This document shows, piece by piece, positions 24,870-40,568 of a DNA stretch of 64,000 nt (position 1 is the first letter of the stretch; every line of letters starts with the position of its first letter). Below the pieces are notes generated by a model. That model worked only from the letters and a program-made list of their open reading frames with translations. It searched no databases and was not told the DNA's origin. The position numbers and the translations under genes were made by a program. This DNA is from Pseudoalteromonas sp. '520P1 No. 423' (GTDB taxonomy: Bacteria > Pseudomonadota > Gammaproteobacteria > Enterobacterales > Alteromonadaceae), in assembly GCF_001269985.1 (NCBI RefSeq), contig NZ_BBZB01000002.1, positions 992,001-1,056,000 of the forward strand. The letters run 5' to 3'.

Positions 24870-25046
24870 TACAGAATTCTTCTTACATAAAATAGGGTAA
24901 AAGTTCAATCTTGATAAAATTGACTAATATATAACAAACTCTTAAAAACAGATAACTAAGCTTTATACCTAATATCTTAGGTATTATATAAAGTAGATAA
25001 TAACAGGAAATCAAAGCTTTTAGACACAGTATTTATGTTTAGAGTT

Positions 25047-25844
25047 TTAATTTATTTGTTCATAAAGCTCTGAGTACTCAGTTCTATGGAGGTTAAATAA
25101 AAACTTTATCAAACAGTCTCTGCCTTGCGCAACATTCTTAAATCTTCCCGCGATGATATTATCCTCAGATCTTACAGATTCTAGGGCTAATTTTACTTGC
25201 CTCTGATCAGGTAAATGTATCTCAAGCTCTTTACCTTCGAATAGTTTATTAGCGCTTGTTATACAGTTTGCCCGCATTGTGATCCCAGAACTTGATAAGA
25301 ACAAAATTTCTACTTGTTGCTTAGTGCCTTTATTATGTAGTGAAACATTTTGAGGGGAGTTTACACGTTAGTTAGGATCAATAACTTGCATATCCATAAT
25401 TTCAGGCGTACCAAGTATTGGCGTGAATTATTCTTTTAAATCCACATTTTCTTTATTCATCTGACACAACAGGATCCGCGATTTTAGCGATTCTATCGCC
25501 ATTTGGCTTATCAAAAAATTGATAAATATGAGAGCAGACAAAGCCAATTGAATTGGACCATGCTGCATACCAAGTTTTGAATCATAAATGGCTAAGCCAA
25601 ATAATAAAAAAAGAACAACTAAGAATACTTTCAATAGCTGATTTGTATAAAAAGTTAATATACCTTCTTTTTTGATATCTTTTTTAACAAACACAGAACA
25701 AAAATATGGAATAACTTTTACTTTGAATCCAGATTTCTTTTCTACAAAGTTCTCATTCATCAGTGTTAATTGATCACGCAATGCATCAATCACTAAAATA
25801 CCTATCGAGTTAGTTTTTTGATTTTGGATTGTAATCAAATACAA
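25047..25844 (-). pseudogene. Two-TM protein with PilZ-like C-terminal domain, interrupted by two in-frame stops
   Basis: One frame stays aligned over 266 codons from a TTG at 25844 (GAGTG upstream, preceded in frame by TAA) to the stop at 25047, but TAA codons occur at 25428-25430 and 25368-25370. The first 138 residues hold two membrane helices (FLVVLFLLFGLAIY and LALSALIFINFLIS). After the stops come RVNSPQNVSLHNKGTKQQ, FLSSSGITMRAN and a beta-rich tail that resembles a PilZ domain (SxSxxG-like motif). The usual RxxxR is not clear. Likely a gene with two nonsense mutations; separate translation of the halves is the alternative. It follows the M48 gene by 28 bases and may have belonged to that operon. 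Confidence 0.5.
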
Positions 25845-25871: not shown

Positions 25872-27341
25872 TTATTTTATTATTTTTATCCATTGCCCAG
25901 ATAATGGCTCTCCTCGCGGATATTGACCATTTATCAAGCGTAATTGCTGCTCTCCATAAAGTCCTATCTTTAATTGCTTAGCAAGTAATGAGTACTTAGT
26001 TTGATCATTTGCTTTAACATAATGAATGACTTTAGATTTCTTATTGGTATTTTGAACTCGATGGGGCTTGAAGCTATGAATACTTTTCAAGAAGATACTA
26101 TCGTAGTCTATCTCTGTATCTATATTATTCACTGTTGATATTAACGTATAGGCGCGTCCACCTTGAAAAATAGTCGCTACTCTTTGATCTGTTTTACCAT
26201 TAGCACCTTCAATAATACCTGTATGGCCAATTAATCCATTTTGTTTAAAGTCTTCAGAGCGTTTTAACATAGATACTTTAGTTTGATTTCTTAAATGTGC
26301 TGCAGGAGATACGCCTTTTAACCTCTTGGACACCAGTAATTGTATTTGGGCTGATTTATTTTTAGGTTCGCTAATAATTGCTTTTCTGGTGTTAGTAACT
26401 TGCCAATCTACAGGAAATAATAACGAAAAACCCAACTTTTCATGTATATATCTGTTTTTCTCAACGGGTTGTTTTTTTAAAAGGGCGCTGTAATTAACAC
26501 CGTAAATCATGCCTTCTGTTTTTTCTCTATATACTTGTTCATTAATTTTTTTATTATCATTTGATTTAAGCGTACCAGCTTTTGAAATAACCTCTTTTAA
26601 TCGAATATCATTTCTTGGGTGTGTGGAAAACACACCATGATAGCTTTTATTCTTTTTACCTTCTTCTTTAGCTCTGTACCTCGCAAACTTCTCTTGATCT
26701 TTTAAAACACCGATTGTTTCAACCATAGCATGGGGATCATAACCACTATTAAATAGATATTCAGCACCTAAACCATCAGCTTCTAGCTCCATTTCTCTCC
26801 CATAACCTTTAACTGCAGCGGTTCCCCAAAGGTTTGTAACATCACCAATGGCTGCACTACCTGTTGTAAATACAGATAATACAGATAATACACTTGCTCC
26901 TTTTCTTGCTGAGTCTTGCCTAACTACATGCCTAGCCGTCACATGTCCGACTTCATGTGCTAATACGGCAGCAAGTTGTGCTTCTGAATCTAAATAGCTT
27001 AATAAACCTCTATTGATGTATATATAACCGCCAGGCAGTGCAAAAGCATTAATATCGGGGGCATCAATGATAGTAAAATGATATTTAATATCTTTTCTAT
27101 GGCTATTTTTAACAATTTTTTGACCTATACTATCTACATATTTGGCTAACTTTTCATCCTGATAAATCGGCATAGATTTTATCAACTTTTCATGCATTTC
27201 TTTGCCCATTTCAATTTCTGAGCTTTCAGACATCATTACGATATCTGGCGTCCCAGTAGCTGGATTTATTGAACAAGCCATCATTAATAAAATAGGGATC
27301 AAAATCATAAATCTGATTATAGTCATAAGCAATATATTCAT
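25872..27341 (-). CDS. M48-family metalloprotease lipoprotein
   Basis: A 489-residue zinc protease of the BepA/LoiP type, anchored to the envelope. Signal peptide and lipobox (PILLMMACS) are followed by the protease domain: zinc motif HEVGH near residue 140 and third ligand in EMELEADGLGAEYL, with the family segments FALPGGYIYINRGLL and STHPRNDIRLKEV. A C-terminal part of about 200 residues (after residue 290) with a QWxKII end resembles the tails of BepA-like proteins without clear TPRs. I prefer the ATG at 27341 (GGGAG upstream, spacing as in other genes of this operon); an ATG at 27353 is also open and touches the upstream stop. It is the last intact gene of the operon and probably processes or quality-controls its envelope components. 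Confidence 0.88.
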   Translation of the reverse strand: MNILLMTIIRFMILIPILLMMACSINPATGTPDIVMMSESSEIEMGKEMHEKLIKSMPIYQDEKLAKYVDSIGQKIVKNSHRKDIKYHFTIIDAPDINAFALPGGYIYINRGLLSYLDSEAQLAAVLAHEVGHVTARHVVRQDSARKGASVLSVLSVFTTGSAAIGDVTNLWGTAAVKGYGREMELEADGLGAEYLFNSGYDPHAMVETIGVLKDQEKFARYRAKEEGKKNKSYHGVFSTHPRNDIRLKEVISKAGTLKSNDNKKINEQVYREKTEGMIYGVNYSALLKKQPVEKNRYIHEKLGFSLLFPVDWQVTNTRKAIISEPKNKSAQIQLLVSKRLKGVSPAAHLRNQTKVSMLKRSEDFKQNGLIGHTGIIEGANGKTDQRVATIFQGGRAYTLISTVNNIDTEIDYDSIFLKSIHSFKPHRVQNTNKKSKVIHYVKANDQTKYSLLAKQLKIGLYGEQQLRLINGQYPRGEPLSGQWIKIIK

Positions 27342-27353
27342 AAAAACTCCCAT

Positions 27354-28019
27354 TTATCCCTCTGTATTATTGAAAAAGTGCTTTAATTGCAAAGCCATAC
27401 CTTTACAGGCATCAGCTTGTACTTGTGCGATAATTGGGATGGGAATAACAACAGCAGGCATATATGATGTACCATCTGCTTCGCTACTAATTTTACCTAT
27501 CAGTTTTTTCTTTTTATAATCCCAGATTGAAGCTTCATATTCAGCTTTTTTATCCCAAGTGCCAAATCCAAAGCACCCTAAGCCACCACCGCCTAAGCTA
27601 CAGGTGATACTACCACTACTTCGGGTCGTTTCTGTATTACCATCAACCCAAATAATGTAGTGAACATTAAAATCGTTAAATTTCTCCGATACAGCATCAT
27701 AGGCTAGTAAACGTTGTAAGTCTCTCACTCTCAATGGGGCAGTGCGGGGCTCAAACCAAGGGTATAAATTATCAACAAATGTTTGTTCTGGGATCACATT
27801 CAGCTGATTTTCACCTTTTGCTAAGATCTTGCCTATGCAAGAAATAAGCTCAGGCTCAGTTTCATAATCACTGCTAGTTCTTCTACCAATAACAACAATT
27901 GACTCGCCTTCTACTAATTCAGTAGAGGCATGTTGAACTTCTTCTATGGTCACAGTAGTACAACCAAATAAAATAAAAAAAAGGCTAAATACACATGCAT
28001 AAGATAGTTTGATCATCAT
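27354..28019 (-). CDS. Lipoprotein of unknown function
   Basis: A 221-residue lipoprotein: signal peptide with lipobox ILFGCT (Cys about 20). The middle (RTAPLRVRDLQRLLAYDAVS) and the YIIWVDGNTETTRSSGSITC region resemble small envelope lipoproteins that report or modify stress, and a Gly-rich loop with two cysteines (SLGGGGLGCFGFGTWDKKAE) follows. The C-terminus has a hydrophobic proline-rich stretch (AVVIPIPIIAQVQADACKG). I do not recognise a named family. AAAGG precedes the ATG. It abuts the protease gene (stop followed directly by that gene's first possible ATG), so the two are co-transcribed. Confidence 0.7.
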   Translation of the reverse strand: MMIKLSYACVFSLFFILFGCTTVTIEEVQHASTELVEGESIVVIGRRTSSDYETEPELISCIGKILAKGENQLNVIPEQTFVDNLYPWFEPRTAPLRVRDLQRLLAYDAVSEKFNDFNVHYIIWVDGNTETTRSSGSITCSLGGGGLGCFGFGTWDKKAEYEASIWDYKKKKLIGKISSEADGTSYMPAVVIPIPIIAQVQADACKGMALQLKHFFNNTEG

Positions 28020-28103
28020 AATTACCTTTAGTATTGAGCAATTAAAAATAAAGTGCTTATAAATTAAGCATAGCTTCTATTATTTAAATTCACCATTTCA
28101 TGC

Positions 28104-28715
28104 TTATTTATTTGCGTGTTTCTTTAACCAGTTATTTATTTCAGGTATATGACTAAATTTAAGCGTTAAACCAGCGCCTGCATCCCTTAATGCGATAACC
28201 ATAGCCTCGTTTAACGCACTTTCTTGAGTTTGCATAAACGCGGTAGGAGTTTTACCATAAGCTGTTAATATCCAATCTGCTAATAACTGGCCTTGGTTAT
28301 CATATACCTTCATATTATATTTGATCCAAACCTCAAACATATTTAGCTTAGTTTCTGCTGGTACGTTATATTGCAACTCATCAACATGGGGTTTAAAAAA
28401 TATATCAATGGGGTTATTTGGTTTACTTTCAAGATCTGGCACACTAACAACATCAGAGAACATAGCAGGCAATACTGTGTTAAATAACGCTAACTGAGCA
28501 TCGCCGACTTCAATTTCCCATTCTTCTCGTTTTTCATCTTTTTCATTATATTGATATGCCTTAAACTCTTTATCATAAATTACCCCTAAGGTGTAAGGTA
28601 GTTTATTAACGACGGGGGTAGGGAACTCCCCCTCTACTGTTAAAGTGCTTTTACATCCTGTAAAAACAAACAAAACTAAAATAAAAGAGATGAATTTTAT
28701 AATATTAAATATCAT
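28104..28715 (-). CDS. Lipoprotein of unknown function
   Basis: A 203-residue lipoprotein with signal peptide and lipobox FVFTGC. The mature part begins KSTLTVEGEFPTPVVNKLPY TLGV in two blocks, like small outer-membrane-assembly lipoproteins with a beta-sandwich, and ends with an amphipathic helix. A conserved-looking WILTAYGKTPTAF segment and an ESALNEAMVIALRDAGAGL helix are typical of lipoproteins in type VI or other machine clusters, but no family is certain. The ATG at 28715 is preceded by AAAAGGAC at proper spacing; the ATG two codons earlier is too close to it. Part of the operon, 36 bases downstream of the second vWA gene. Confidence 0.7.
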   Translation of the reverse strand: MIFNIIKFISFILVLFVFTGCKSTLTVEGEFPTPVVNKLPYTLGVIYDKEFKAYQYNEKDEKREEWEIEVGDAQLALFNTVLPAMFSDVVSVPDLESKPNNPIDIFFKPHVDELQYNVPAETKLNMFEVWIKYNMKVYDNQGQLLADWILTAYGKTPTAFMQTQESALNEAMVIALRDAGAGLTLKFSHIPEINNWLKKHANK

Positions 28716-28751
28716 TAACATGTCCTTTTTATAAAAATTAAGCGTTATTAT

Positions 28752-29750
28752 CTATTTGTAATCATTTAGCCCAACAAAAGTACCGCCATTTCTATATGTT
28801 AGTTCTCGCATTAAGGTTGCAAATCGAATGCCTGTTGTTTGTAAATGAGTAGGTCGCATAAATTGAACAGGAAAACCAACCGCGTGTATTCTTACCAATC
28901 TTTCGTTATCCTTATTTACTTTGTTTATTCGCTCTATGGTACCCAGTACTGTTTGAATTGAACGTCCAGAAAATTCATCACCCATGACATACAAACTAAT
29001 TTTTTTATCTTGAGTAAAAAAAGTACTAATCGCCTTTTGAATGCCTTCAACTGGACTACTGTTACTAAAGGGGTTCCATGTTCTTAACCGTTTTATAATT
29101 GCCTCTCTACGTCCTGGTGTATCGGGGATCCACTTCCTTCTATAATTTGTGAACATATATTTACCCATATCATTCATAATTTGAATGCCTTTGACTTTAG
29201 GGTATATATCCAATGTTGCGATAATTTCTTCTAATAATCTTTGCCAACCATAGTTATACATACTGCCGGATGTATCTATAATGAAAACTAAATATTCACT
29301 ATCAACTGGGATCCCCCCAATTAAGTTATTTTTATTCTTATAATTTGCACCTAACAAACGGGTCATTTCATCCGAAAGCGATTGCAGCGCAATTGCTAGT
29401 TTCCCTTTTTCTTTCTGCATGTAAGTTGCAGCTTTTGAAGTTTGGGCGTATTGGGCTTCAATGGTCGCGAGCTTTGTACGTAAAATAGCAATACGCTTTT
29501 TTTCGTTATCTATTTGTTCATGTTTGGCCGTTAAATTACGATTAAAGATGGTTGTTTCGCCTCTAATACTAAATAAGGTTTTTTGTAGGTTTTCAACTTG
29601 GGCATCTAAATTAACTGCAGACTTTTCAAGTACAATTGGCTGTACAGTTTTAGTGATCATTAACAGTAAAATGATGGCACCAAAGCCACAACAAATCACA
29701 TCTAAAAATGCAATACTTGACTCTTGTTGTATCCTTTTATTTCTTGCCAT
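28752..29750 (-). CDS. ExbD/MotB-like membrane protein with vWA domain (second copy)
   Basis: A 332-residue single-pass protein. The N-terminal membrane helix (about 12-33) starts SSIAFLDVICCGFGAIILLL; its FLDV aligns with the FIDVM of ExbD, whose Asp carries protons. A coiled coil follows (about 42-130), then a periplasmic von Willebrand A domain (about 150-325) with a MIDAS motif DTSGS at 159-163. I chose the ATG at 29750 because AGGAG lies six bases before it; the longer frame upstream is not protein-like. It lies 8 bases after the first vWA gene, with similar architecture but low similarity, so the two may form a heterodimeric stator-like subunit with the ExbB-like channel upstream. Confidence 0.83.
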   Translation of the reverse strand: MARNKRIQQESSIAFLDVICCGFGAIILLLMITKTVQPIVLEKSAVNLDAQVENLQKTLFSIRGETTIFNRNLTAKHEQIDNEKKRIAILRTKLATIEAQYAQTSKAATYMQKEKGKLAIALQSLSDEMTRLLGANYKNKNNLIGGIPVDSEYLVFIIDTSGSMYNYGWQRLLEEIIATLDIYPKVKGIQIMNDMGKYMFTNYRRKWIPDTPGRREAIIKRLRTWNPFSNSSPVEGIQKAISTFFTQDKKISLYVMGDEFSGRSIQTVLGTIERINKVNKDNERLVRIHAVGFPVQFMRPTHLQTTGIRFATLMRELTYRNGGTFVGLNDYK

Positions 29751-29758
29751 AAAAACTC

Positions 29759-30838
29759 CTAGGGCCAATCTTGTGAAGGGCTCATAAATGAACCTGAAGT
29801 ATATTGTGCAAGTTTCCAAAATGCAGAAGCAGCCATAGGATCACCTTCCATTGGCCACAATAAAACATTAACAGGAATACCTTCAGGCAAACTATTTACT
29901 GCTTTTTCAAATAAAGCTTCTCTTTGAGGGCCTGTAATCGTGGTCGCATTTTTATCCGTGGTACTACTTTGAGTTGGTAAACCATCGGTAATTAACAAAA
30001 TATTATCGGGTAGGGGATCTAAGTAATTAACCACCTGAAATGCTTTTTCTAGATTTGTACCGCCAGTAGGCGCTGTTGTTCTCAGGTTTTTAATACTAGA
30101 GTTTAGAGTCTCTTTATCCGATATATAATGCCATTTGTGAATACTGTCTTTAAATGCCGCAGACACATCTGTATTAAAAGCATAAATTTGATATTGGCTT
30201 TGAACCGGAAATTTAGCGATTAACCATTCAACGGCTAAAATGGCACGCATCCATTTTGAAGAAGCTCTTTTTGCTTCATCTGGCATATATTTTTTTCGAA
30301 TGATATTTACAATCGAGTTATCTAACATACTTGCGGAGGTATCTATTAAAATTAAGGTTCTGGCGCCACTGAGCTTTAGGCCTGTTAAATATTGTCTATT
30401 TCCTTGACCGGAAAAGTCTCTGGCGTCATTCCCTTTAGCTTGTTCATCTTCAAGCTTTTCTTTTTCAAGCATCAGGGTTTTTATTTTATTCTTTAAATCT
30501 AATAATTGTTGATCGTCATCGGGTATATCTAGTTGTGTTACTTTATTATTTATTGCATCAATTTCATCATTAATCCTACGGGCTAAACCACTTGTTTCGA
30601 CCAAAGTTTGATCTAAAGTTGAAATTGTATTTTTTAGTTTTACTAAATTTTTATCTCCTTCTAAAATTTCTTCTTCTAATAAATTAACTTCAGCCTTTAA
30701 AGTAATGTTTTGTGCATCAACAACAGTATCAACATCGTGTTTAATAATTAAAAAAACTAAGATCACAGCACCAAAACCGCAAGACATAATATCAAGAAAT
30801 GATAAGCTAAAAGTTGTAAACTGGCGCTTTTTTGTCAT
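29759..30838 (-). CDS. ExbD/MotB-like membrane protein with vWA domain (first copy)
   Basis: A 359-residue single-pass protein. The membrane helix (about 11-33) reads SLSFLDIMSCGFGAVILVFL with an ExbD-type FLDIM; the Asp at about 15 is in the position of the ion-carrying residue of ExbD, TolR and MotB. A long coiled coil (about 45-135) leads to a vWA domain (about 155-355) with MIDAS residues DTSAS (166-170), TGGT and ITDG. It ends WP after TSGSFMSPSQD. GAGGAG gives a strong ribosome binding site. It is 3 bases after the Hsp70/FHA-like gene and followed by its paralogue. Inferred role: force-transmitting subunit reaching the periplasm. Confidence 0.85.
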   Translation of the reverse strand: MTKKRQFTTFSLSFLDIMSCGFGAVILVFLIIKHDVDTVVDAQNITLKAEVNLLEEEILEGDKNLVKLKNTISTLDQTLVETSGLARRINDEIDAINNKVTQLDIPDDDQQLLDLKNKIKTLMLEKEKLEDEQAKGNDARDFSGQGNRQYLTGLKLSGARTLILIDTSASMLDNSIVNIIRKKYMPDEAKRASSKWMRAILAVEWLIAKFPVQSQYQIYAFNTDVSAAFKDSIHKWHYISDKETLNSSIKNLRTTAPTGGTNLEKAFQVVNYLDPLPDNILLITDGLPTQSSTTDKNATTITGPQREALFEKAVNSLPEGIPVNVLLWPMEGDPMAASAFWKLAQYTSGSFMSPSQDWP

Positions 30839-30841
30839 AGA

Positions 30842-32134
30842 TTAGAACTCCTCTTCAACAGTAATTAATTCGAAATTAAAGTTATCGGAAATTGAAATTA
30901 TGTCTGCATTGTTTAAAAGAATATTATCTTTAACGGATGCACCATTGACAGTTAAGCTTTTTGCTCTAATTGAAGTTAAGGTGATTTTGTTACCATTGGG
31001 AGTCAAAACTGCAAAAGATTCGGATGTTTGATGTCGACTAAATGGGTGTATGGTCTTTTTATCATTAGGATTGTTTAAGTACACATGTTTATTTTTAAAT
31101 GCCACACTTAAATGATTAAATACAATATGTGTGGCATGCTTGATATTTATAACCTTATCTTGTTGGTATCGTTTTAGAGTCGGGATTTGTTCCAATAAAC
31201 ACACGCCAGATTGCTGTTTAATAAAAGGTAGTAGGTTTTGTATCAAGGCGAATATAGAAGGTTTTTTTAATCGTTTACCGTCATTTTTATACTGAGTATT
31301 AGCAATTAAATTATAAAAGTCATGTGTAAAATATAATGGAGCATCATTTGGTTTATTTTCAAATAGAACACTAAAAAATTCAGCTATTTTTTCTAATAAA
31401 TCTTGAGTTTCTAGATTAATTGATTTTTCATTAATAGATATATCAGTATCTGCTAATTGTCCTGTATTTGATAACTTAATAAGCAATGTATAAATTTGGT
31501 TAAATAAGCTTTGTTCAGTGTGAGCACTATGAAAAACATCAAAACGGATATGTTTAATAAACTTTTGGTTGCACCAGTTTGATATATACCAAACTAACTC
31601 AATAAACCCTAATTCAAGAAATATATTTTGCTCATTGAGTTTAATTGTCTTGCTAATGGTCAAATTCGATAAATTACAATTATGTAACCCTAATTGGCCA
31701 ATAGTATAATCACCCATATAATCAACAGCTTCAATATTTATTACATCTTGATTTACCAATGCTAATGTATTTAAATTACAACTTTGGGCTAAACCTAATA
31801 ACAATGATAATTCTTGCTCTTTGTAATAAGATGGCGTGATGAAAACAACTGGAATATTTGAATCATATTTTTCAGTAATCTTTAAAAGCTGCTGATACGC
31901 TAAATCTGCAAAATGCCTAATACTGTCATTTTTACAGTTAATTTCTTCATAACATAAACGTTGCCAAAAATGAGAATAAAAGTCATCAGGAGATAATTTG
32001 ATATTAGGTAAAGCATCTTCACCAAATATAAGCTTATCTTTTGTGATATATGCATAAGCTCTTGACTCTGAGCTTGAGTGACTATCATGGACTATAAGTT
32101 GAAAGTCATTAACTTCGATAACAATAAAATCCAT
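30842..32134 (-). CDS. Degenerate Hsp70/actin-fold protein with FHA-like C-terminus
   Basis: A 430-residue cytoplasmic protein with no signal or membrane segment. The N-terminal two thirds has Hsp70/actin-like order: a first phosphate-loop region (VIEVNDFQLIV), a GEDALPNIKLSPDDFYSHFW block like the GeeA-Np-F of DnaK relatives, and VVFITPSYYKEQELSLLLGL with LVNQDVINIEAVDY, which matches the Vpa-F and lNEptAAal segments. Key glycines of the nucleotide site are missing, so ATP binding is doubtful. The last 60 residues (ITLTSIRAKSLTVNGA and ISISDNFNFELI) look like the end of an FHA domain, a phosphothreonine reader. The TAA of the ExbB-like gene directly precedes its ATG, with GAGGAG. Possibly a cytoplasmic regulator of the channel. 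Confidence 0.6.
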   Translation of the reverse strand: MDFIVIEVNDFQLIVHDSHSSSESRAYAYITKDKLIFGEDALPNIKLSPDDFYSHFWQRLCYEEINCKNDSIRHFADLAYQQLLKITEKYDSNIPVVFITPSYYKEQELSLLLGLAQSCNLNTLALVNQDVINIEAVDYMGDYTIGQLGLHNCNLSNLTISKTIKLNEQNIFLELGFIELVWYISNWCNQKFIKHIRFDVFHSAHTEQSLFNQIYTLLIKLSNTGQLADTDISINEKSINLETQDLLEKIAEFFSVLFENKPNDAPLYFTHDFYNLIANTQYKNDGKRLKKPSIFALIQNLLPFIKQQSGVCLLEQIPTLKRYQQDKVINIKHATHIVFNHLSVAFKNKHVYLNNPNDKKTIHPFSRHQTSESFAVLTPNGNKITLTSIRAKSLTVNGASVKDNILLNNADIISISDNFNFELITVEEEF

Positions 32135-32947
32135 TTAGCACTCCTCTGAACTATCAATTTTTAAATGATTTAACAGATTTTCATCGCAATAATCTTGTGT
32201 ATTTTGTACATGCCGTTCTTGAAATAGTTGCAATTGATGAGTGAAAAACATGATAAATATACTGATCACTAAAGCGATAAAGGTTGAGTTAAATGCCACA
32301 CCTAGGCTATTGGTTACCCCAATAATATCGCCTTCAACAGCTTTATGCGCTTGACCTAATGCTTCACCTATTCCTCGTACAGTACCAATAAATCCAATAG
32401 AGGGAATTGCCCAAGAAATATATCTGACCATTGCTAATTCACTATCTAATCTATCAGCTTCTGAATCACAGGTATCTTTTATAGCGGTCGCAACTGCTGC
32501 GATATTTTCTGTTGCTATAAATCGCTTTAGTGCAATTAAAATTGTGCGTGGTAATAACAATACTTGTTTGTCTTTTGACAGGTTCTCAATTGGACGGCAT
32601 AAACTATTGGCATCTTCTGGCAAAACCTTGGTACCTTGTTGAATATTTAATACTGAAAAATTTAGCATTGAAGTTTCATGAACAGTTTTTTTTGCTTTAA
32701 ATGCCATGATCAACAATACCCAAAACATTAATATAAAGCAGGTTTCTTGTTCATAATCTTTTAGCACTATATAAAGGGATCTTTGAGTACTAATTTCACT
32801 ACCGGCTTGTTGCTGTGCTTCTTGCTGTTGTAAAAGCGCGTCTGCATTGGGTCTGATCACAGCAACATAAACTGCATGTACAATTAAAATTGAGATCAAT
32901 AAAGAAAATATTTGGAATATAAATTCACTGCCAGAACTTCGTTTCAT
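32135..32947 (-). CDS. ExbB/TolQ/MotA-family ion channel subunit
   Basis: A 270-residue inner-membrane protein of the proton-channel family. Helices at about 9-30, 66-83, 173-196 and 208-230. The cytoplasmic segment holds ALKRFIATENIAA, and the third helix contains PSIGFIGTVRGIGEALGQA, the family signature GLxGTVxGM. The fourth helix reads GVAFNSTFIALVISIF, with the Ser/Thr region that lines the ion path in ExbB. Family members form pentamers that convert the proton or sodium motive force into motion of ExbD/MotB-type partners; the two vWA genes downstream supply these. It is followed without gap by the Hsp70/FHA-like gene. Confidence 0.9.
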   Translation of the reverse strand: MKRSSGSEFIFQIFSLLISILIVHAVYVAVIRPNADALLQQQEAQQQAGSEISTQRSLYIVLKDYEQETCFILMFWVLLIMAFKAKKTVHETSMLNFSVLNIQQGTKVLPEDANSLCRPIENLSKDKQVLLLPRTILIALKRFIATENIAAVATAIKDTCDSEADRLDSELAMVRYISWAIPSIGFIGTVRGIGEALGQAHKAVEGDIIGVTNSLGVAFNSTFIALVISIFIMFFTHQLQLFQERHVQNTQDYCDENLLNHLKIDSSEEC

Positions 32948-32959
32948 AATAAATATCCT

Positions 32960-33235
32960 TTATATATCAACAGGGAATGGAACAGATAAGTCTTCAGAAA
33001 TAGACTCTGTCGGAATAAACTTTTTATCTTTGTTTTTAGGTTTTTCGTTACTTTTAATTGGTTTATTTTCTGATAAGCTAAAAACTCTTTTAGGCTTATC
33101 AGTTATTAGCTTATCAATATCACTTGTTGATATTTTTGCTTGTTTATTACTAGTAGGTGATATGTTAATCGCTTCATTTGATACACTTGATGTTGTAAAA
33201 ATTAAGAACATAAAAACACTTATTTTTATAACCAT
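32960..33235 (-). CDS. Small exported protein of the operon
   Basis: A 91-residue protein with a signal peptide (about 1-17, FTTSSVS) and a mature part that is short, polar and Lys-rich: SNKQAKISTSDIDKLITDKP, then a KPKNKDKKF stretch and an acidic C-terminus. It is predicted disordered and resembles no family I know. An AGAGG ribosome binding site precedes the ATG and it is spaced 12 bases from each neighbour, which argues that it is a real gene. Its role in the machine is unknown; it might be a small periplasmic regulator or linker. Confidence 0.6.
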   Translation of the reverse strand: MVIKISVFMFLIFTTSSVSNEAINISPTSNKQAKISTSDIDKLITDKPKRVFSLSENKPIKSNEKPKNKDKKFIPTESISEDLSVPFPVDI

Positions 33236-33247
33236 ATAATTTGCCTC

Positions 33248-35320
33248 TTAATTAGCATATTTAGCAATTCTAAAACCAAGATCTTGTCTTTTATCATTGC
33301 CATAATCCCGAAATGAAAGTCTTAGTTCTGTCCGAGTTCCATGTGCCCAACTTGAGCCGCGGATAACATGATAGTCTCCTGTTAGAGGCCCCATAGGATC
33401 ATATTGCACTTTTGAAGATAGACCGGTTTGAATTTCATATAAATCATGACTCCATTCGGCGACATTACCAGCAAGATCATAAATCCCTTTTTGGTTTTTA
33501 TTAAATGAAGCAACGGGAGCAGATACTGGATATTCGTCATTGTATTTAGGTTGCACATTACCCAAAATTGCTGCGCCAGAAATATCAGCGAAATTTCCTG
33601 ACTTTTTAGCTGGAGGCAGTGAATCCCCCCAAGGGTATTTCAGCATTTTGTCATCTATAAATCTTGATGACCAAATCCATTCAGCTTCTGTTGGCAATCT
33701 ATAACCTGTGGCATTTTTATCAAATGAAACCAGTTTATTATCTTTTATGTCATAAAAATTGTTTAATTTTTCTTTGTCTGATAACCAGTTACAAAATAAT
33801 GCAGCCTGAATCCAAGTGATATTTACAACAGGTTGAAGTTTGCCATTTAAGCTTTTACCTTTTACATTGCCAGAAGAGTGTTCGCTTTGAAACTGCTTAA
33901 ATTGTTTATTGGTAACTTCTGTAAACCCTAAATAAAAAGGGCGAGATAAGTTTAGTGTACGCTTGATCTCATTTGCACGACGACCTTGTTCACGACGCGA
34001 AGCACCTGCGTAAAACGTTTTTTTCGGCTTAAATAATTTTAGTTTTCCACCTGAGGGATCTGAAATAATTGGCTTCATATTTTCCCACTTTGCTTGTTCT
34101 AACGTTTTAAGCTGAACACTAAATGTTTGTGCTAATGTGGGATTAGGTAGTATGTCTTTGTGATATGTAACATATCCGCTCTTTTCTATTCGTATACTTT
34201 GTTTTTTAACAGATAAAGTTAAATCTTGTGATGCGCGTCCCATCAAAGTGTCATTAATATAAATCAAAGCATCAGATGGGGCGACTTTAAACTTAACATC
34301 ACCGAGAATAGGGGATAGACTGATATTTTTATTAACCTGGGTATTAGAATTAACAATTAATGTTTGACTATGCTGCTTAAATCCCTCCTTAAAAATCAAT
34401 AATGAAGCACTTTGATCAGGAACTACATTAGCTAAAATAGGGGTTTTTCCTAAAAACTCATTACCATAGGTAACACTTGCACCACTAGGAGAGCTTGTAA
34501 TTTTCAAAATACCTAACAACTTTTCTAAATGCACATCTCTCATTGTTTCATTTTTTAGCGCTATTACATCTATATTTCTTTGAACATCTTGATAACCTTT
34601 CTTTTTAAACACTAAGGAATGAGCACCTTGAAGTAAATCGAGCAAGGCGGGAGTCGTACCAAGATGTATGCCATCTTTAAATATTTTAGTTTCTGTAGGC
34701 GTTGAACTTATGCTGATCTGAGCCCAAGCGGGTGATAAATCTATCGTTAAATTTTGAGTTTTATTTTTACCGACAATTGTTATGGGAGTTTCGTAGTCAA
34801 AATATTTATTCGCTGAAACTATTAAAGTATGATCTCCAGCAGGAATGCTTTTTATAATTCCATCTATTAAATCAACAGATTCAGAATCTATTTTTACTGC
34901 GACTTTGACTTTGGGTTTAACAATTAATTCAAGATTTCCTGGTAACTTAGTAAACTCAAAATCGAAAGATTGATTTTGTTCTTGAGTTACTTCAAAACTA
35001 GTATCAAGTTGATAATATCCTGTTTTATCTGACTTTAAGCTGTATTTACCAGGCAACATTAAATAGTAATCTGACATTTTAACGTAGAAGCCACCCGATA
35101 AAGTAATATTCTTAGAAGCGGGCATAGTGCTGAAAGTAACTGATTTAGCAGTAAACACATATAATATCGCGATAATACTGATACATAATAGAATTACCAG
35201 TACCAGATGCTTTGTGCTAAATTGACTTTTTTTATGCGCTATCACTTCACTTGAAGGCACAAAATTTGACGGTTTAATTATATTGTTTGAGTTATTCGTA
35301 AAATTTGAATCTTTATTCAT
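33248..35320 (-). CDS. Membrane-anchored PEGA-repeat protein with FGE-sulfatase-like domain
   Basis: A 690-residue protein. A membrane anchor lies at about 38-58, followed by a beta-rich start and three clear PEGA repeats (about 195-250, 265-320 and 340-395), each with the signature turn such as STPTETKIFKDGIHLG, SSPSGASVTYGNEFLG and KSGYVTY; a degenerate fourth repeat lies before them. From about 415 an FGE-sulfatase (SUMF1) domain follows with YRLPTEAEWIW, GNVAEWSHD and RGSSWAHGT. The two active-site cysteines of true formylglycine-generating enzymes are absent from the RGSSWAHGT-LRLSFR segment, so it is a ligand- or glycan-binding version, not a sulfatase activator. The topology places the domains in the periplasm. 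It ends 12 bases before the next gene. Confidence 0.86.
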   Translation of the reverse strand: MNKDSNFTNNSNNIIKPSNFVPSSEVIAHKKSQFSTKHLVLVILLCISIIAILYVFTAKSVTFSTMPASKNITLSGGFYVKMSDYYLMLPGKYSLKSDKTGYYQLDTSFEVTQEQNQSFDFEFTKLPGNLELIVKPKVKVAVKIDSESVDLIDGIIKSIPAGDHTLIVSANKYFDYETPITIVGKNKTQNLTIDLSPAWAQISISSTPTETKIFKDGIHLGTTPALLDLLQGAHSLVFKKKGYQDVQRNIDVIALKNETMRDVHLEKLLGILKITSSPSGASVTYGNEFLGKTPILANVVPDQSASLLIFKEGFKQHSQTLIVNSNTQVNKNISLSPILGDVKFKVAPSDALIYINDTLMGRASQDLTLSVKKQSIRIEKSGYVTYHKDILPNPTLAQTFSVQLKTLEQAKWENMKPIISDPSGGKLKLFKPKKTFYAGASRREQGRRANEIKRTLNLSRPFYLGFTEVTNKQFKQFQSEHSSGNVKGKSLNGKLQPVVNITWIQAALFCNWLSDKEKLNNFYDIKDNKLVSFDKNATGYRLPTEAEWIWSSRFIDDKMLKYPWGDSLPPAKKSGNFADISGAAILGNVQPKYNDEYPVSAPVASFNKNQKGIYDLAGNVAEWSHDLYEIQTGLSSKVQYDPMGPLTGDYHVIRGSSWAHGTRTELRLSFRDYGNDKRQDLGFRIAKYAN

Positions 35321-35324
35321 AACT

Positions 35325-36842
35325 TCACCCGTTATTTACTTTTTCAACGCACTTAACAAGAATTTTATTATTTTTACTGCCAGGTAGTAAATTCACAACT
35401 TTTCTAATATCCCTATAACCATTTCTTGAGCCGATTAAAGTATATTCACCTGGTTTTAGAGACATATTTTTATTGGTGAAATGACCAATATCTCCAATAC
35501 GATAAATAGTGATACGTGTTAAATCATCAGATAAAATTTCAATATTGATTGGTAATTTACTTTGCCTCAAAATATGTTGTACTGATGTGATTTGTTTTAG
35601 TAGGTTTACATCTGGGTTTTGTATTTCAGTTGCTTGTTTATAAATATTTTGTGCCTCTTGATACACATTATTGTTTGATAACCGCGCTGGATAATTAATA
35701 ATGCCATTAAGTTTATGCTCTAAGTCAGCTTTTGATTTAGTTCTTATTAAGCCCACTCGTGCTGAGGTAAGGCTTGAATCTATTAATAAAGCTTTATTAT
35801 ATTCTTTAGCAGCATCTTGCCATTTAAGTGACTTTTCTAGTTCTAAGGCTGATTTTAATATGTTCGAAATTTGACTCTGTGTTTGTTGATTTTTAGATTG
35901 TAATATTGCTGCATTTGGATCATTCGAATCAGGTATTATTTTTTGTGCTTGGGTAAAATACTTTATGGCAGTTTTAAATTCATGGTTATTTAAACTGATA
36001 TAACCTTGAGACATGGCTTTAGAGAAATCTCTTTGTGTGATTTTAGCTTCAACTAATTTTAAATTATCTTGTGTTAATTGAGAGTTTTTATCTAAATCTA
36101 TAGCAGTTAAAAAACGTTTTTTAGCATTATCTAATGATTTATTTTTTATTAAAATGACACCCTCATTATTTAATGAGAGTACCTCATCTAATACTAGTGC
36201 ACGATCGTATTTTTTTTGTGCCTCAACGTCTGTGGGCTTTAAATACATGGCTATTTGTAATTGTTTCTTTGCTCTCGTTGCATTATTGTTAGCTAAAGCT
36301 TCACTGCCTTTATTTAAATACAATTGATAGTGTTGTTCAATTTCATGCTCTAGATTAGTTAGTTCAGTGAGCGATTCAGTATAGAGTGAAATCGCTTTAT
36401 TAAACTCCTGAAGCCGATAAGATAAATCACCTTGTTTCGCTTTTTCAAAAGCCAGATCAAACTTCTCTTTTCCCCATAGCTCAACATGATGCTGTTCGAG
36501 TATATTCTGTTTATCAAGCACTTTAGCCAAAATTGTTTGAGAGGTTTTTCGATGTTTTGATAATTGTGCTTCATGCCATGGAGATTCATCAATTGCTTTA
36601 TTTAACTCTTTCTCCATAAACACTTTACTATCAGTTTCTAACTCAGGTTTAGAGATATTTTTTGGTAAATAAAAAATAACAAAAATCAAAGCGAAAACTA
36701 AGGCTGTTATCCCTATAAGGTAATAAAAGTTAACGCTATTAAACTTAGTATTTGAGTTCCTTATATTTTTATCATTTAATTCAAAAGTTTTAGAGTGAGT
36801 TATCGCCTGTTCTTGTTGTTCCGAAGTATCTTTATGAGTCAT
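35325..36842 (-). CDS. Membrane-anchored TPR protein with PEGA-like C-terminus
   Basis: A 505-residue protein with a cytoplasmic N-terminal tail (about 1-38), a membrane helix (about 40-62, YLIGITALVFALIFVIFYL) and a large periplasmic TPR-rich region (about 115-400) with repeats such as YRLQEFNKAISLYTESLTEL and HEFKTAIKYFTQAQKIIPDS. The last 50 residues (MSLKPGEYTLIGSRNGYRDI) look like a PEGA domain. It has a strong AGGAGG ribosome binding site and ends 4 bases before the PEGA-FGE gene, whose TM-plus-PEGA layout it shares. It probably scaffolds other periplasmic parts of the machine. Confidence 0.85.
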   Translation of the reverse strand: MTHKDTSEQQEQAITHSKTFELNDKNIRNSNTKFNSVNFYYLIGITALVFALIFVIFYLPKNISKPELETDSKVFMEKELNKAIDESPWHEAQLSKHRKTSQTILAKVLDKQNILEQHHVELWGKEKFDLAFEKAKQGDLSYRLQEFNKAISLYTESLTELTNLEHEIEQHYQLYLNKGSEALANNNATRAKKQLQIAMYLKPTDVEAQKKYDRALVLDEVLSLNNEGVILIKNKSLDNAKKRFLTAIDLDKNSQLTQDNLKLVEAKITQRDFSKAMSQGYISLNNHEFKTAIKYFTQAQKIIPDSNDPNAAILQSKNQQTQSQISNILKSALELEKSLKWQDAAKEYNKALLIDSSLTSARVGLIRTKSKADLEHKLNGIINYPARLSNNNVYQEAQNIYKQATEIQNPDVNLLKQITSVQHILRQSKLPINIEILSDDLTRITIYRIGDIGHFTNKNMSLKPGEYTLIGSRNGYRDIRKVVNLLPGSKNNKILVKCVEKVNNG

Positions 36843-36997
36843 CCAGCCTCCTAAGTTAACGAATAATCTAAAATCTTTTCTATGTTTAATATATAGTTTA
36901 GAAATTAATGAATTGCATTATTAAATTTAAAATTAATTCATTTAAAACCAACTTCCTTGTCATGGGTAATCGCTTATATAACAAGCATCATAAGCTG

Positions 36998-38167
36998 TTA
37001 TTCACCTACATTAACTTTATAGATATCTTTTAATATTTCTCGCCATTGCTCATATTGATTATCAACAGTACCACTTAATGTAATAGTGCGATCTTCAAGT
37101 TCTATAACATGTGTTTCTAAGTTAGCCTCTAATGAATCACCCAGCTCTTGAAGTGCCTCTATGTGAATTTGAGACTCAGCATCTCTATCGAATCCATCTT
37201 TAATAATGTAACTACCACCAGCCACTGCGACGGTGCCTGCTGCACGAGCTGCACCACTTGAGTGTCCTGTAGCAAAAATACCAGCGATGATAGAGGCTGC
37301 CCCGATGAGCTTTTGGTTATTGGCCTTTCTTTGCATTGTTCTCATAGCTATGACTTCATTGTAGCTTTCTTTACGCCAGGTTTGATATGGGGTTTTCATG
37401 CCTTTAACATAACGACCGTAATATTCTTGAAGCGTATCAACAAATAAGTAATCTCTCTCTCTTATTTGTCTGATCCTAACCATCATAGGATCGCCCTCGG
37501 CAGGCAGCCTGTTCACAGAATAATTGCCCGATTGATCTTGTGATAAATGGCCCTCGAACATATTCGGAGAAAAAGACTTAGCAAATTTTAATTCTGATAT
37601 TTGCCTTATTTTAGTTAATTGATTGGGCTGTAGTGTTTTTAGATATAGATATAGATCATTTGTTATTTGATTATATACATTCTGAAAGGGCTCTTTTGGT
37701 AACTGCATTTTAGCATTGTAAGAATATTTACTTGCTTTATGTCGATATTCTTTAGTGTACCAATGCTTACCCGTTGCATCTGTTACTTTTATGCTAAGTG
37801 TTAGTAATTCACCATCAGATTTAAGTATTTCACCAGCGACTAAAACATCTACTGAATCATGCTCCAAAGGGACAACCCTAACAGCTCCCCACGCGGCACT
37901 TGTTTGTAGTGTTTCCATTAATAGATAGGGAAAATAACTCGCTTCAGCCACACGTATTTCGGGGAAATAGATAGCATCATCATCTAATTCTTGTAGCTTA
38001 TCTAAACCAGGATCAAAAACTCGTATTCCAATATCAAGCAGATGTGCATCTGAAATTTCAGTGGTTACAAGTATGACAGGGGTTACTTTAGTCGTTTTAA
38101 CCTCTGTTGTTGCACAGCCTAGCTGCAAAATGATTAAAGGAATTAGAACATGTATAAATTTTAGCAT
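36998..38167 (-). CDS. Lipoprotein with glycine-rich hydrophobic segments
   Basis: A 389-residue lipoprotein: signal peptide and lipobox LQLGCA (Cys about 18). The first 130 residues (TTEISDAHLLDIGIRVFDPG, with LVAGEILKSDGELLTLSI) resemble the N-terminal domain of envelope lipoproteins that sense or build a complex. A Tyr-Arg-rich middle (LFVDTLQEYYGRYVKGM) is followed by two Gly-Ala-rich hydrophobic stretches (about 285-320) that could insert in the outer membrane, and a C-terminal BON-like unit (ITLSGTVDNQYEQWREIL). I do not recognise the family. GGAG precedes the ATG. It lies 5 bases after the repeat-rich lipoprotein gene and 155 bases before the TPR/PEGA gene, which may have its own promoter. 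Confidence 0.75.
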   Translation of the reverse strand: MLKFIHVLIPLIILQLGCATTEVKTTKVTPVILVTTEISDAHLLDIGIRVFDPGLDKLQELDDDAIYFPEIRVAEASYFPYLLMETLQTSAAWGAVRVVPLEHDSVDVLVAGEILKSDGELLTLSIKVTDATGKHWYTKEYRHKASKYSYNAKMQLPKEPFQNVYNQITNDLYLYLKTLQPNQLTKIRQISELKFAKSFSPNMFEGHLSQDQSGNYSVNRLPAEGDPMMVRIRQIRERDYLFVDTLQEYYGRYVKGMKTPYQTWRKESYNEVIAMRTMQRKANNQKLIGAASIIAGIFATGHSSGAARAAGTVAVAGGSYIIKDGFDRDAESQIHIEALQELGDSLEANLETHVIELEDRTITLSGTVDNQYEQWREILKDIYKVNVGE

Positions 38168-38172
38168 TTCAT

Positions 38173-39288
38173 TTACTCCTTACCTTGATTTTTATATTTT
38201 CGATATTCTTGCCATAATTTTTCTCTAATAATCGGATCAGCTTCTTTAAGTGCTGCCTCTCTGATTTGCCTTGCAACAATATCATCATCTTCACCACTGG
38301 GAATATCAGTAGGGGGTGCATATATTTGCTGATTTTTTGAATGCTTAAAGTCTCCTTCAGGTTGTCTACTAGGCATTGGCATTGATCCGTTTCCTGAATT
38401 CGAATCCGAATTCATACCTCTTTGTGTAGATTGAGAAGAATCAGTTTCACCATTGAGGACATCGTCATAAAGTCTGCCATTATTTGCATTTTCTACTTCT
38501 TCTTCACTGCCTTCTTCACTACCTTTGTTTTGAATATAAGCTCTTTCACTCAGTATCATGCCATCGTAATCATTCATTGATTTATTCAGTTTATCTTCAA
38601 GCTTTGCGATTATTTCTCCTCTGGTAGACTGAAGGGCGCCAGTACTTGATTGTGCACCTGAACTTGATTGCTCGCCTGAACTTGATTGTTCGCCTGAACT
38701 TGATTGTTCGCCTGAGCTTGATTGTTCACCTGAGCTTGATTGTTCACCTGAGCTTGATTGTTCACCTGAGCTTGATTGTTCACCTGAGCTTGATTGTTCA
38801 CCTGAGCTTGATTGTTCACTAGCACTAGATTGTGAACTTGAGGATGTACTTGCTTCCTCTTCTGAAAAGTCTATTTCTTTATTGCTTGGTTTACTTTGTT
38901 CATTACCAAATGTATCTTCTGATTGTTGCTCTGATTGTTGCTCTGATTGTTGCTCTGATTGTTGCTCTGATTGTTGTGCTGATTGTTGTGCTGATTGTTG
39001 TGCTGATTGTTGCTCTGATTGTTGTGCTGAATCATTAGAGCGCGTTTGTGCTTGAGTTTGACTCTTTTGAGATGAAGGCTTTGATTGGCTTTGGCTTTGG
39101 CTTTTAGTGCTACTTTGAGATTGAGAAGGGGGACTCGACTTTGTAGGTGTAGACTTTGAAGCCGAAGAGCTTGATGGTGGCGAACTCGAAGGCGGCTGAC
39201 TTGGAGGCGCAGGCGTCTGGGTAGACTTACACGCCACTAGAATAAAAATCAAAGTCATCATACAAAATAATTTAAGTGCTGTATTCAT
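38173..39288 (-). CDS. Repeat-rich (Ser/Gln) lipoprotein
   Basis: A 371-residue lipoprotein with signal peptide and lipobox FILVACKS (Cys about 20). The mature N-terminal half is low complexity: a Ser/Pro stretch, about eight four-residue QSEQ or QSAQ units, then about eight six-residue SSSGEQ units. The C-terminal 150 residues are a normal-looking acidic sequence (EIIAKLEDKLNKSMNDYDGM and PIIREKLWQEYRKYKNQ). The repeats are directly visible in DNA as 12-bp and 18-bp tandem arrays. The likely role is a flexible tether between the outer membrane and other parts. GGAG lies before the ATG and the gene sits 14 bases after the TPR/TonB gene. Confidence 0.8.
   Translation of the reverse strand: MNTALKLFCMMTLIFILVACKSTQTPAPPSQPPSSSPPSSSSASKSTPTKSSPPSQSQSSTKSQSQSQSKPSSQKSQTQAQTRSNDSAQQSEQQSAQQSAQQSAQQSEQQSEQQSEQQSEQQSEDTFGNEQSKPSNKEIDFSEEEASTSSSSQSSASEQSSSGEQSSSGEQSSSGEQSSSGEQSSSGEQSSSGEQSSSGEQSSSGEQSSSGAQSSTGALQSTRGEIIAKLEDKLNKSMNDYDGMILSERAYIQNKGSEEGSEEEVENANNGRLYDDVLNGETDSSQSTQRGMNSDSNSGNGSMPMPSRQPEGDFKHSKNQQIYAPPTDIPSGEDDDIVARQIREAALKEADPIIREKLWQEYRKYKNQGKE
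38640..38822. repeat. 18-bp tandem repeat array (SSSGEQ units)
   Basis: About nine to ten copies of an 18-bp unit, consensus on the plus strand CTTGATTGTTCACCTGAG. The left copies vary at two positions (AACTTGATTGCTCGCC), the right copies are nearly identical, so the array looks recently expanded. Being a multiple of three it does not shift the frame. Confidence 0.85.
38917..39030. repeat. 12-bp tandem repeat array (QSEQ / QSAQ units)
   Basis: About eight to nine copies of a 12-bp unit, plus strand TGATTGTTGCTC or TGATTGTTGTGC, coding for the QSEQ and QSAQ repeats of the same lipoprotein. Unit length is a multiple of three. Confidence 0.8.
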
Positions 39289-39302
39289 TATATAACTCCA
39301 AT

Positions 39303-40568
39303 TTATTTCGGAAAGATATGTAGTTTCATTTGTTCGGTTTTTATCGGTATTCCTTTTACAAGTTTAGGTCTGAATTTAGTATGTCTCAATGATTTTAATG
39401 CAAGTGATCTTAACCTTGTGCTTTCTTTCATATTTGAATTAACAACCCTTATGTTTTTTGCTCGACCATGTTTAGTCACATCAAAAGATGCTTGTATGAA
39501 TTTAGTATTTGATAGTAATAAATCCTTCGATATGTTTTCTCGGGTATTAGTGGCCAAATTTGGTAAATAAGGAAGTGCAATTGGTTTTTGGAATAAGTCT
39601 TCAGTAAATGTATTACCAGCATCATTTAGCATCGCAAATTGATAAGCTTCATTGTATAAATGCATAGCGGATTGCCTTTTTTCAAATAATAAATACCAAT
39701 CAGCAAGTTTCAGTTTAACTGTAGAAATAGTAAAATAATCCGGTTGCGTCTGATTTTCCAATATCTCAATTTCATTTAATATTGTATCTCTACCATTTGA
39801 AAAGCTGGTACGTTTGAGTGAAATAATTTGGTTTTGATAATTCGTTGTAGTGGTATATTCGGTATTATCTATTAAGTTTGAATTAATCTGTGAAATATCA
39901 AAAGTTGCAAAAAAATAGTTTATTATCAATTTGTTATTCAATATATATATATTGCGCTTATCAAATTCACCATAAACTGTTTCACTAATATTTAACGCCA
40001 TTTTATATAGGTAATGTGCATTATAGAGATCTTGCGCAGGGCTAGGAGAGTAGCTCATGGCGTAAGATGTTAAATTCCAATTAGCCAACTTAACCAAAAC
40101 TTGTAACATCTCTTCATCTTGCTCGGCAAAATTACGATTATGCAGCCAATATAAATAATTGTACTTCTCATGAACTTGTTTCCATTTTTTTTGCTGTTTT
40201 AAGCTTAGAATTATTTTTTCTAAAATGGAAATTTGCGCTTTTGAATATAATCCATCATTAATTCTATTTAAATGAAGAGAACGATTAAAAGTGGTGATCG
40301 CTAAATCATGCTTTTGTTGTTTTTGATATATGTCGGCTAAATTGGCTAATTCTTGAGCTAACTTATCACTATAAACGCCTTCAGCAGATTCGAGTTCTTC
40401 AATTGCATTTTCGTAGTCTGTGATTTGCTCATTTAAGGTTTTTGGTGAGTTGTTATCAGCAAGTTTAAATGGGTTACTGGGGTTACTGATTGTATTAGCT
40501 GCACTAATAGAAAAACACAAAAATGTCAGTATTAAAAAACTAAAATTCAAATATAAATTTTTTGTCAT
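39303..40568 (-). CDS. Periplasmic TPR protein with TonB-like C-terminal domain
   Basis: A 421-residue exported protein and the first gene of the operon. Signal peptide (about 1-22, CFSISAAN), then a TPR-type helical region (for example LANLADIYQKQQKHDLAITT) to about 330, and a C-terminal domain (about 345-420) with SFDVTKHGRAKNIRVVNSN, then LKSLRHTKFRPKLVKGIPIK. This is the pattern of the TonB C-terminal (energy transducer) domain. Unlike TonB it has no N-terminal membrane anchor and no Pro-rich linker. I chose the ATG at 40568, with GGAG seven bases before; seven more codons upstream are open. A 9-bp inverted repeat at 40682-40705 lies upstream. Confidence 0.78.
   Translation of the reverse strand: MTKNLYLNFSFLILTFLCFSISAANTISNPSNPFKLADNNSPKTLNEQITDYENAIEELESAEGVYSDKLAQELANLADIYQKQQKHDLAITTFNRSLHLNRINDGLYSKAQISILEKIILSLKQQKKWKQVHEKYNYLYWLHNRNFAEQDEEMLQVLVKLANWNLTSYAMSYSPSPAQDLYNAHYLYKMALNISETVYGEFDKRNIYILNNKLIINYFFATFDISQINSNLIDNTEYTTTTNYQNQIISLKRTSFSNGRDTILNEIEILENQTQPDYFTISTVKLKLADWYLLFEKRQSAMHLYNEAYQFAMLNDAGNTFTEDLFQKPIALPYLPNLATNTRENISKDLLLSNTKFIQASFDVTKHGRAKNIRVVNSNMKESTRLRSLALKSLRHTKFRPKLVKGIPIKTEQMKLHIFPK

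Follow-up and report, generated by a model that had tools for sequence, protein, structure and literature searches.

A conserved gene cassette of Pseudoalteromonas encoding an ExbB-like channel, two vWA proteins and a PEGA/TPR scaffold: a candidate trans-envelope motor

Gene content of the unit and its putative motor proteins

A unit of 13 open reading frames (ORFs), all on the minus strand, occupies positions 25872-40568 of a 64,000-nucleotide stretch (hereafter the window) of the Pseudoalteromonas sp. '520P1 No. 423' genome. The assembly totals 5.39 Mb in two contigs, and the window lies on the smaller one. The genes, numbered 01 to 13 by position, are read from the ATG of gene 13 and are spaced by 0-155 bases. 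The power for work at the outer membrane must come from the inner membrane, and few machines are known to deliver it, namely the motors of the Tol, Ton, gliding and type IX systems. A first-pass annotation, made from the DNA letters, had described the thirteen genes as one unit encoding an envelope machine with an ExbB-like channel and twin vWA partners; the ORFs were confirmed, and most of this anatomy proved right. Pfam searches of the window proteins identified an M48 protease, a MotA_ExbB channel, vWA domains (one strong, one weak), PEGA together with a formylglycine-generating enzyme (FGE) domain, and TPR in two proteins. The three motor genes, all part of the minimal core defined below, are:

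32135..32947, minus strand: gene 07, MotA/TolQ/ExbB-type channel (MotA_ExbB PF01618, E 3e-13, above cut-off)
29759..30838, minus strand: gene 05, vWA1 (VWA_2, E 1e-8), with an ExbD-type membrane helix carrying Asp16, a coiled coil and a metal-ion-dependent adhesion site (MIDAS)
28752..29750, minus strand: gene 04, vWA2 (weak VWA_2, E 0.0045, below the Pfam cut-off), with Asp17 in the membrane helix and DxSxS

Of 7999 sequences scored, 6308 are relatives of vWA1 at E 0.001. Loci were compared using the thirteen window proteins as queries on the best 80 of at least 570 loci, ranked by vWA1 similarity and taken from named genomes; this choice makes vWA1 present by construction and biases the 13-gene layout towards near relatives. 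Residue counts are given over alignment rows, among them the window's own protein, and exclude ORFs that are weak or outside 0.7-1.4x its length.

The channel family profile matches TolQ without gaps (E 0.02), placing Thr189 and Thr222 on TolQ Thr145 and Thr178, and both positions are Thr in 79/79 rows. These TolQ-type threonines and the PF01618 match bear out the ExbB-like assignment of the first-pass annotation. The tolQ model itself scores 27 bits against a cut-off of 221, and searching the PDB sequences with the channel protein alone returned no match. Hydrophobicity peaks at residues 13, 71 and 217, along with a helix at ~177-197, suggest one membrane helix more than in TolQ.

The two vWA proteins share one architecture: a membrane helix with an invariant Asp, followed by a coiled coil and the vWA domain. 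Each window protein has a single hydrophobic peak, at residue 14, consistent with the single-pass topology first assigned to them. Asp16 and DxSxS/T/D of vWA1, a full MIDAS, are conserved in 81/81 rows; Asp17 of vWA2 is conserved in 78/78, its DxSxS is invariant, and Ser and Asp occupy the remaining MIDAS positions. The membrane helices read (S/A)FLD(I/V/T) in the alignments and carry no SHLS motif. In a sample of class genomes, the vWA1 profile picks up the adjoining vWA2 genes at E values as low as 1e-17, marking vWA2 as a paralogue of vWA1. vWA2 stands beside vWA1 in 80 of the 80 loci and the channel in 79, and a scan of the 13 proteins of the window's unit for the ExbD/TolR domain PF02472 found none up to E 0.1. 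In terms of 5:2 motors, gene 07 has the hallmarks of an A subunit (PF01618, pore threonines) and both vWA proteins those of a B subunit. Because the channel Thr and vWA Asp residues are invariant and the window's unit has no ExbD/TolR, the vWA1/vWA2 pair is probably the axle.

Conserved order, minimal core and distribution

Upstream of the motor, four further core genes encode two lipoproteins and two single-pass transmembrane proteins:

38173..39288, minus strand: gene 12, Ser-rich lipoprotein with a conserved C-terminal motif; divergent forms score weakly
36998..38167, minus strand: gene 11, lipoprotein with a predicted FlgT/PelC/CsgG/TolB-N-like domain, then a long helical hairpin
35325..36842, minus strand: gene 10, single-pass transmembrane protein with periplasmic TPR (TPR_2, E 2e-12; transmembrane peak at residue 41)
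33248..35320, minus strand: gene 09, single-pass transmembrane protein with PEGA (E 1e-38, four stretches) and an FGE-like domain (E 1e-36)

In 79 of the 80 loci, the genes found lie in the same order on one strand, far beyond chance, where order was scored conserved when the genes found were in sequence and misses were allowed. The exception, L089, has a single weak extra M48 match at the locus edge. Presence per gene is 80 for genes 05 and 04, 79 for 03 and 07, 78 for 02, 74 for 06, 73 for 09, 71 for 10, 70 for 11, 69 for 12, 68 for 01, 65 for 13 and 47 for 08, with many misses falling at contig or flank ends; all twelve genes other than gene 08 are carried by 52/80 loci. Median identity to the window ranges from 0.22 (gene 06) to 0.65 (vWA2), with 0.62 for the channel and 0.51 for both vWA1 and gene 11. 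Owners of the cassette include Thalassomonas, Colwellia, Microbulbifer, Exilibacterium, Simiduia and Halieaceae.

Beyond these loci, 31 further ones were chosen by us in batches of 20, 7 and 4. Genes 11, 10, 09, 07, 05 and 04 occur together in 24 of them (13/20, 7/7 and 4/4 by batch), and 20 of those 24 also have gene 12. The other seven lack part of the core: four at contig ends (L132, L134, L144, L148), two without gene 11 (L137, L138) and one relic (L147, described below); in L137, neither gene 11 nor the channel was found across 19 kb. All six loci from Mariprofundaceae, a family of another class, carry only 12-11-10-09-07-05-04 (L159-L162, L164, L165; one further 13-bit match in L162 was disregarded). 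The minimal core therefore comprises the Ser-rich lipoprotein, the ring-type lipoprotein, the TPR protein, the PEGA-FGE protein, the ExbB-like channel, vWA1 and vWA2. The synteny comparison beyond the strain that the first-pass annotation had proposed thus finds an order conserved across genera and a core that extends to Mariprofundaceae. Relatives of a Mariprofundus vWA2 include proteins P0341, P0354 and P0357, listed under the names Candidatus Kentrum, Desulforhopalus and Sneathiella marina.

The other six genes (06, 08, 13, 03, 02 and 01) come, go or move. In L140, L141, L142 and L145, gene 13 sits on the opposite strand past the far end of the unit and may thus have joined it on more than one occasion. 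L141 and L145 have gene 02 or 01 displaced; the order of the peripheral genes is therefore not maintained at a distance. Gene 06 is absent from six loci, leaving 15-107 bp between its neighbours (L026, L027, L043, L046, L047, L049); these keep the rest of the motor and belong to Colwellia metagenome-assembled genomes (MAGs), Pseudoteredinibacter-type genomes and a Cellvibrionaceae MAG. The channel gene follows vWA2 rather than preceding gene 06 in L136 and L138.

The distribution of the cassette is patchy: it is present in 3/35 same-genus genomes besides the window's own and in 1/24 other genomes of the order, and a channel match below 1e-40 occurs in 6/375 genomes of the order, own included. 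Long and short versions coexist within the window's genus (L010 and L011 versus L129 and L177; the vWA1 of G011 is 30% identical), which suggests horizontal transfer. Such patchiness within a genus would also suit a Zorya-type anti-phage defence, in which the motor senses envelope damage, and the PADLOC ZorA profile does match the channel (E 6e-4). ZorA and ExbB are related, and a weak ZorA match is expected on that ground. Zorya and the cassette share the ExbB/MotA-type channel and differ in what surrounds it: neither ZorB nor an effector was found among the window proteins, with no ZorB-type axle, helicase or nuclease (13/13 proteins by Pfam, 10/13 by PADLOC) and neither ZorB nor ZorC/D/E among the PADLOC matches for those 10/13 proteins. 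The other PADLOC matches are weak (PbeC 0.002, LmuB 7e-4, PD-T4-10_B 0.02, peptidase_U41 0.026), and gene order is stable across genera. We regard a defence role as very unlikely.

Within the class sample, 39/369 genomes have a vWA1-profile match at 0.001; 31, own included, fall below 1e-40 and were counted, and eight weak ones (best E 6e-7) were dropped. vWA1 and gene 11 are both present in 26 of the 369 genomes, vWA1 only in 5, gene 11 only in 1 and neither in 337 (Fisher p 8e-34, for genomes that are not independent). In the lone gene-11 genome, G244, a single contig of 2.2 Mb, genes 10 and 11 are fragmented (L147, 7370-10174) and no vWA1 or motor was found; the cluster there is a decaying relic. 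Five vWA1 genomes remained without gene 11 after a second search; three are assemblies of 300-410 contigs, and two of one family (G272 and G372) are 99-100% complete and are true exceptions at this search sensitivity.

Three genomes have the motor alone at the vWA1 locus (L058, L094, L096), and in 3/3 the genes 12-11-10-09 lie together elsewhere in the same genome. Because the split scaffold block co-resides with the lone motor in each, the cassette consists of a scaffold module and a motor module that stay together in one genome. The mobility of the six peripheral genes is what a chance grouping of unrelated envelope genes would predict; set against the near-uniform order, the strong co-occurrence and the co-residence of split modules, such a grouping is scarcely credible.

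Scaffold, lipoprotein and accessory proteins

Gene 12 has its lipobox Cys in 66/66 rows and C-terminal invariants in 19 rows. Its coding region contains two tandem arrays, at 38645-38819 (18-base unit, 9.7 copies) and 38918-39024 (12-base unit, 8.9 copies); because the repeat units are multiples of three, its length may vary between strains without frameshift. Gene 10 combines its TPR with a C-terminal PEGA match that is uncertain (E 0.022, under the curated cut-off), and no PEGA was found at 0.01 in three relatives. The two transmembrane PEGA scaffolds of the first-pass annotation are thus secure for gene 09, with its FGE domain, and sub-threshold for gene 10.

The predicted model of gene 11 resembles several ring-forming outer-membrane proteins, with a fold like those of FlgT, PelC and CsgG; it differs from these by its added long helical hairpin and by the absence of a credible PDB sequence match. 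Foldseek returned no match for gene 11 at E 0.001, and PDB searches with profiles of genes 11, 03 and 02 gave nothing credible. The FGE-like domain of gene 09 has no Cys over the 30 residues from VIRG, the position of the active-site cysteine pair, in 73/73 rows; the only common Cys of the domain is residue 510, in 70/73 rows. The domain thus lacks the cysteine pair that marks the active site of a formylglycine-generating enzyme.

These two proteins provide the case for a secretion or surface-motility machine, whose motor would drive the export or movement of surface proteins in the manner of GldLM in gliding and type IX secretion; the PEGA-FGE protein would act as GldK/GldJ and the gene-11 ring as an outer-membrane port. 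CsgG and PelC, which gene 11 resembles, serve export, and the best NCBIfam model for gene 09 is GldK/PorK (E 2e-29). That match, at 103 bits against a cut-off of 350, falls on FGE, a general domain; the shared feature is an FGE-fold protein beside a membrane motor, and gene 09 differs from GldK/GldJ by its PEGA repeats and transmembrane anchor. An adhesin, substrate or barrel gene common to most of the 80 loci was not found, as seen on the downstream side only and hence half a test: the commonest downstream family (CoA-ligase-like by eye) occurs in 24/80 loci, and the upstream side is visible for at most 1.5 kb before gene 13. We consider this reading rather unlikely.

The six remaining genes encode:

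39303..40568, minus strand: gene 13, periplasmic TPR protein (TPR_12, E 8e-8) with a signal-peptide-like N-terminus; peripheral
32960..33235, minus strand: gene 08, small, poorly conserved protein (47/80 loci) that has a hydrophobic stretch at its N-terminus
30842..32134, minus strand: gene 06, cytoplasmic protein with a predicted pseudo-Hsp70 nucleotide-binding domain and an FHA-like domain; variable
28104..28721, minus strand: gene 03, lipoprotein of no known family (lipobox Cys 80/80 rows); addition, outside minimal cores
27354..28019, minus strand: gene 02, lipoprotein of no known family (lipobox Cys 78/78 rows); addition, outside minimal cores
25872..27353, minus strand: gene 01, M48 metalloprotease (Peptidase_M48, E 3e-35), probable lipoprotein; peripheral

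At 0.01, Pfam gave no match for genes 02, 03, 06 and 11 (alignments of 29, 26, 32 and 30 rows) except one PDGF_N in gene 02, which occurs in 1/29 rows at E 0.006 and looks like chance. Gene 13, first annotated as TonB-like, loses that label: its TonB_C match (E 0.0025) scores 18.7 bits against a curated cut-off of 24.6, and no TonB_C was found in one relative at 0.01. Many of the loci where gene 13 was missed are cut by the 10 kb flank, and it was not found beside the minimal cores of the further loci. The predicted structure of gene 06 adopts the Hsp70 nucleotide-binding-domain fold, in agreement with the degenerate Hsp70/FHA-like protein first described. In its 32-row consensus, the usual Hsp70 phosphate-loop motifs are not visible. 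Gene 01 has HExxH in 65/65 rows, the third-ligand Glu191 in 62/65 and a lipobox Cys in 61/65; its nearest NCBIfam model is BepA, at 143 bits against a cut-off of 570. The protease domain claimed earlier therefore stands, while its place in the machine is peripheral, as several divergent loci gave a weak match to gene 01 or none.

The presence of a pseudo-Hsp70 and an M48 protease would fit quality control, and two adjacent vWA genes with a TPR partner are reminiscent of the Bat operon. Together they could indicate a vWA assembly or chaperone system (Bat, MoxR-vWA-like) for metal insertion or periplasmic folding, in which the ExbB-like protein supplies energy for release only. Genes 06 and 01 are not core, no MoxR-type ATPase was found by Pfam among the 13 proteins, and the ExbD-type Asp, invariant in the helices of both vWA proteins, would have no obvious role. 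This makes such a system improbable.

Proposed machine, related motors and flanking genes

We think it fairly probable that the cassette encodes a trans-envelope, ion-driven machine, in which a vWA1-vWA2 axle in an ExbB-like ring applies force via the scaffold to an outer-membrane lipoprotein ring. The ExbB-like protein would form a pentameric inner-membrane channel, whose pore the ExbD-type helices of vWA1 and vWA2 would enter as a heterodimer, the axle. Proton binding at Asp16/Asp17 would turn the axle against the ring, with the coiled coils passing the motion to the periplasm. There, the vWA domains may grip the TPR and PEGA-FGE scaffold through their metal sites, and the scaffold in turn may engage an outer-membrane ring of the gene-11 lipoprotein. 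Mechanical force on this outer-membrane assembly (tethering, remodelling or gating) would be the most likely output, and we would give most weight to a force of the Tol-Pal kind and less to secretion or movement. Lineage-specific regulation or quality control may fall to the extra lipoproteins, the M48 protease and the pseudo-Hsp70/FHA protein. The working model of the first-pass annotation, in which the channel uses the ion motive force to move the vWA pair, is partly supported: its motor reading agrees with the invariant Thr and Asp residues and with the lack of ExbD/TolR.

The motor core has already been published as a prediction, and the cassette is a variant of known ion-driven motors. 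A study of TolQ with TPH-vWA pairs (PMC12204202; Mol Biol Evol 2025, msaf138), in which the second vWA family is heterologous and phenotype and function are stated to be unknown, includes an AlphaFold 3 model that places two TPH-vWA helices within a TolQ pentamer. The cassette shares with the systems in the available text of that study a TolQ-like channel, two different vWA proteins, an ExbD-type helix Asp, and the absence of an adjoining tolR/exbD and of SHLS, and was assigned to the family, whose query in that study came from Idiomarina, by these features. Section 8 of the study presents the motor genes alone, without the scaffold, ring-type lipoprotein, FHA protein or 7/13-gene layout. The counts reported here provide further support for its axle reading, on more sequences and with partners. 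They add the full cassette, its core and spread, the two modules per genome, the pseudo-Hsp70/FHA-like protein, the FlgT/PelC/CsgG-like predicted fold and an FGE domain without its cysteine pair. No description of the full cassette was found in open-licence literature, and the term 'vWA' does not occur in the available portions of PMC12505986 or PMC9389320.

Other trans-envelope motors differ in their defining components, and the first-pass annotation's judgement that the locus matches neither Tol-Pal, TonB nor Zorya was upheld among the window proteins. The 13 proteins include no Pfam domains of TolR, TolA, the TolB propeller or Pal, and have the vWA pair instead, so the unit is not Tol-Pal. 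A TonB system was likewise rejected, given the signal-peptide-like N-terminus and sub-threshold TonB_C of gene 13 and the lack of ExbD. The Agl-Glt/Nfs system of Myxococcus and the gammaproteobacterial Glt core (PMC3169522) come closer in parts, with an ExbB-like motor, two B subunits (AglQ and AglS), and FHA, TPR and TonB-type components. AglQ and AglS are, however, ExbD/TolR proteins, which such a system needs and which the PF02472-free unit lacks, and 'vWA' and 'PEGA' occur 0 times in the available text of that paper.

A broader reading, which we offer tentatively and hold to be doubtful, is that the cassette represents a widespread further trans-envelope motor beside Tol-Pal and Ton, in which an asymmetric vWA axle and PEGA/TPR struts drive a FlgT/PelC/CsgG-type ring of outer-membrane lipoproteins, so that a pore in the outer membrane or a surface structure would be gated or moved directly by the flow of protons. 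The conserved 6-7 gene core, found in at least two classes, offers a part list for a motor published without partners, and the compactness of the cluster makes the role of the machine testable.

The flanks of the unit were also inspected. A promoter scan gave no information (55 found versus 71.6 expected). A terminator-like hairpin lies at 40805-40778, directly upstream of gene 13, the first gene, in a scan at chance level (9 found versus 8.3 expected). Downstream, a small hydrophobic protein (25428-25844) and a glycosyltransferase (23649-24908) have relatives only in L019 and L020 among the best 80 loci. The genes at 25428-25844 and 25047-25304 were rejected as members of the unit, as relatives of the former were found in just L019 and L020 and of the latter in L020 alone. 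Farther out, ~3.5 kb beyond the unit, an IS66 transposase gene (20802-22322) adjoins a ThrE-type exporter gene (22344-23444).

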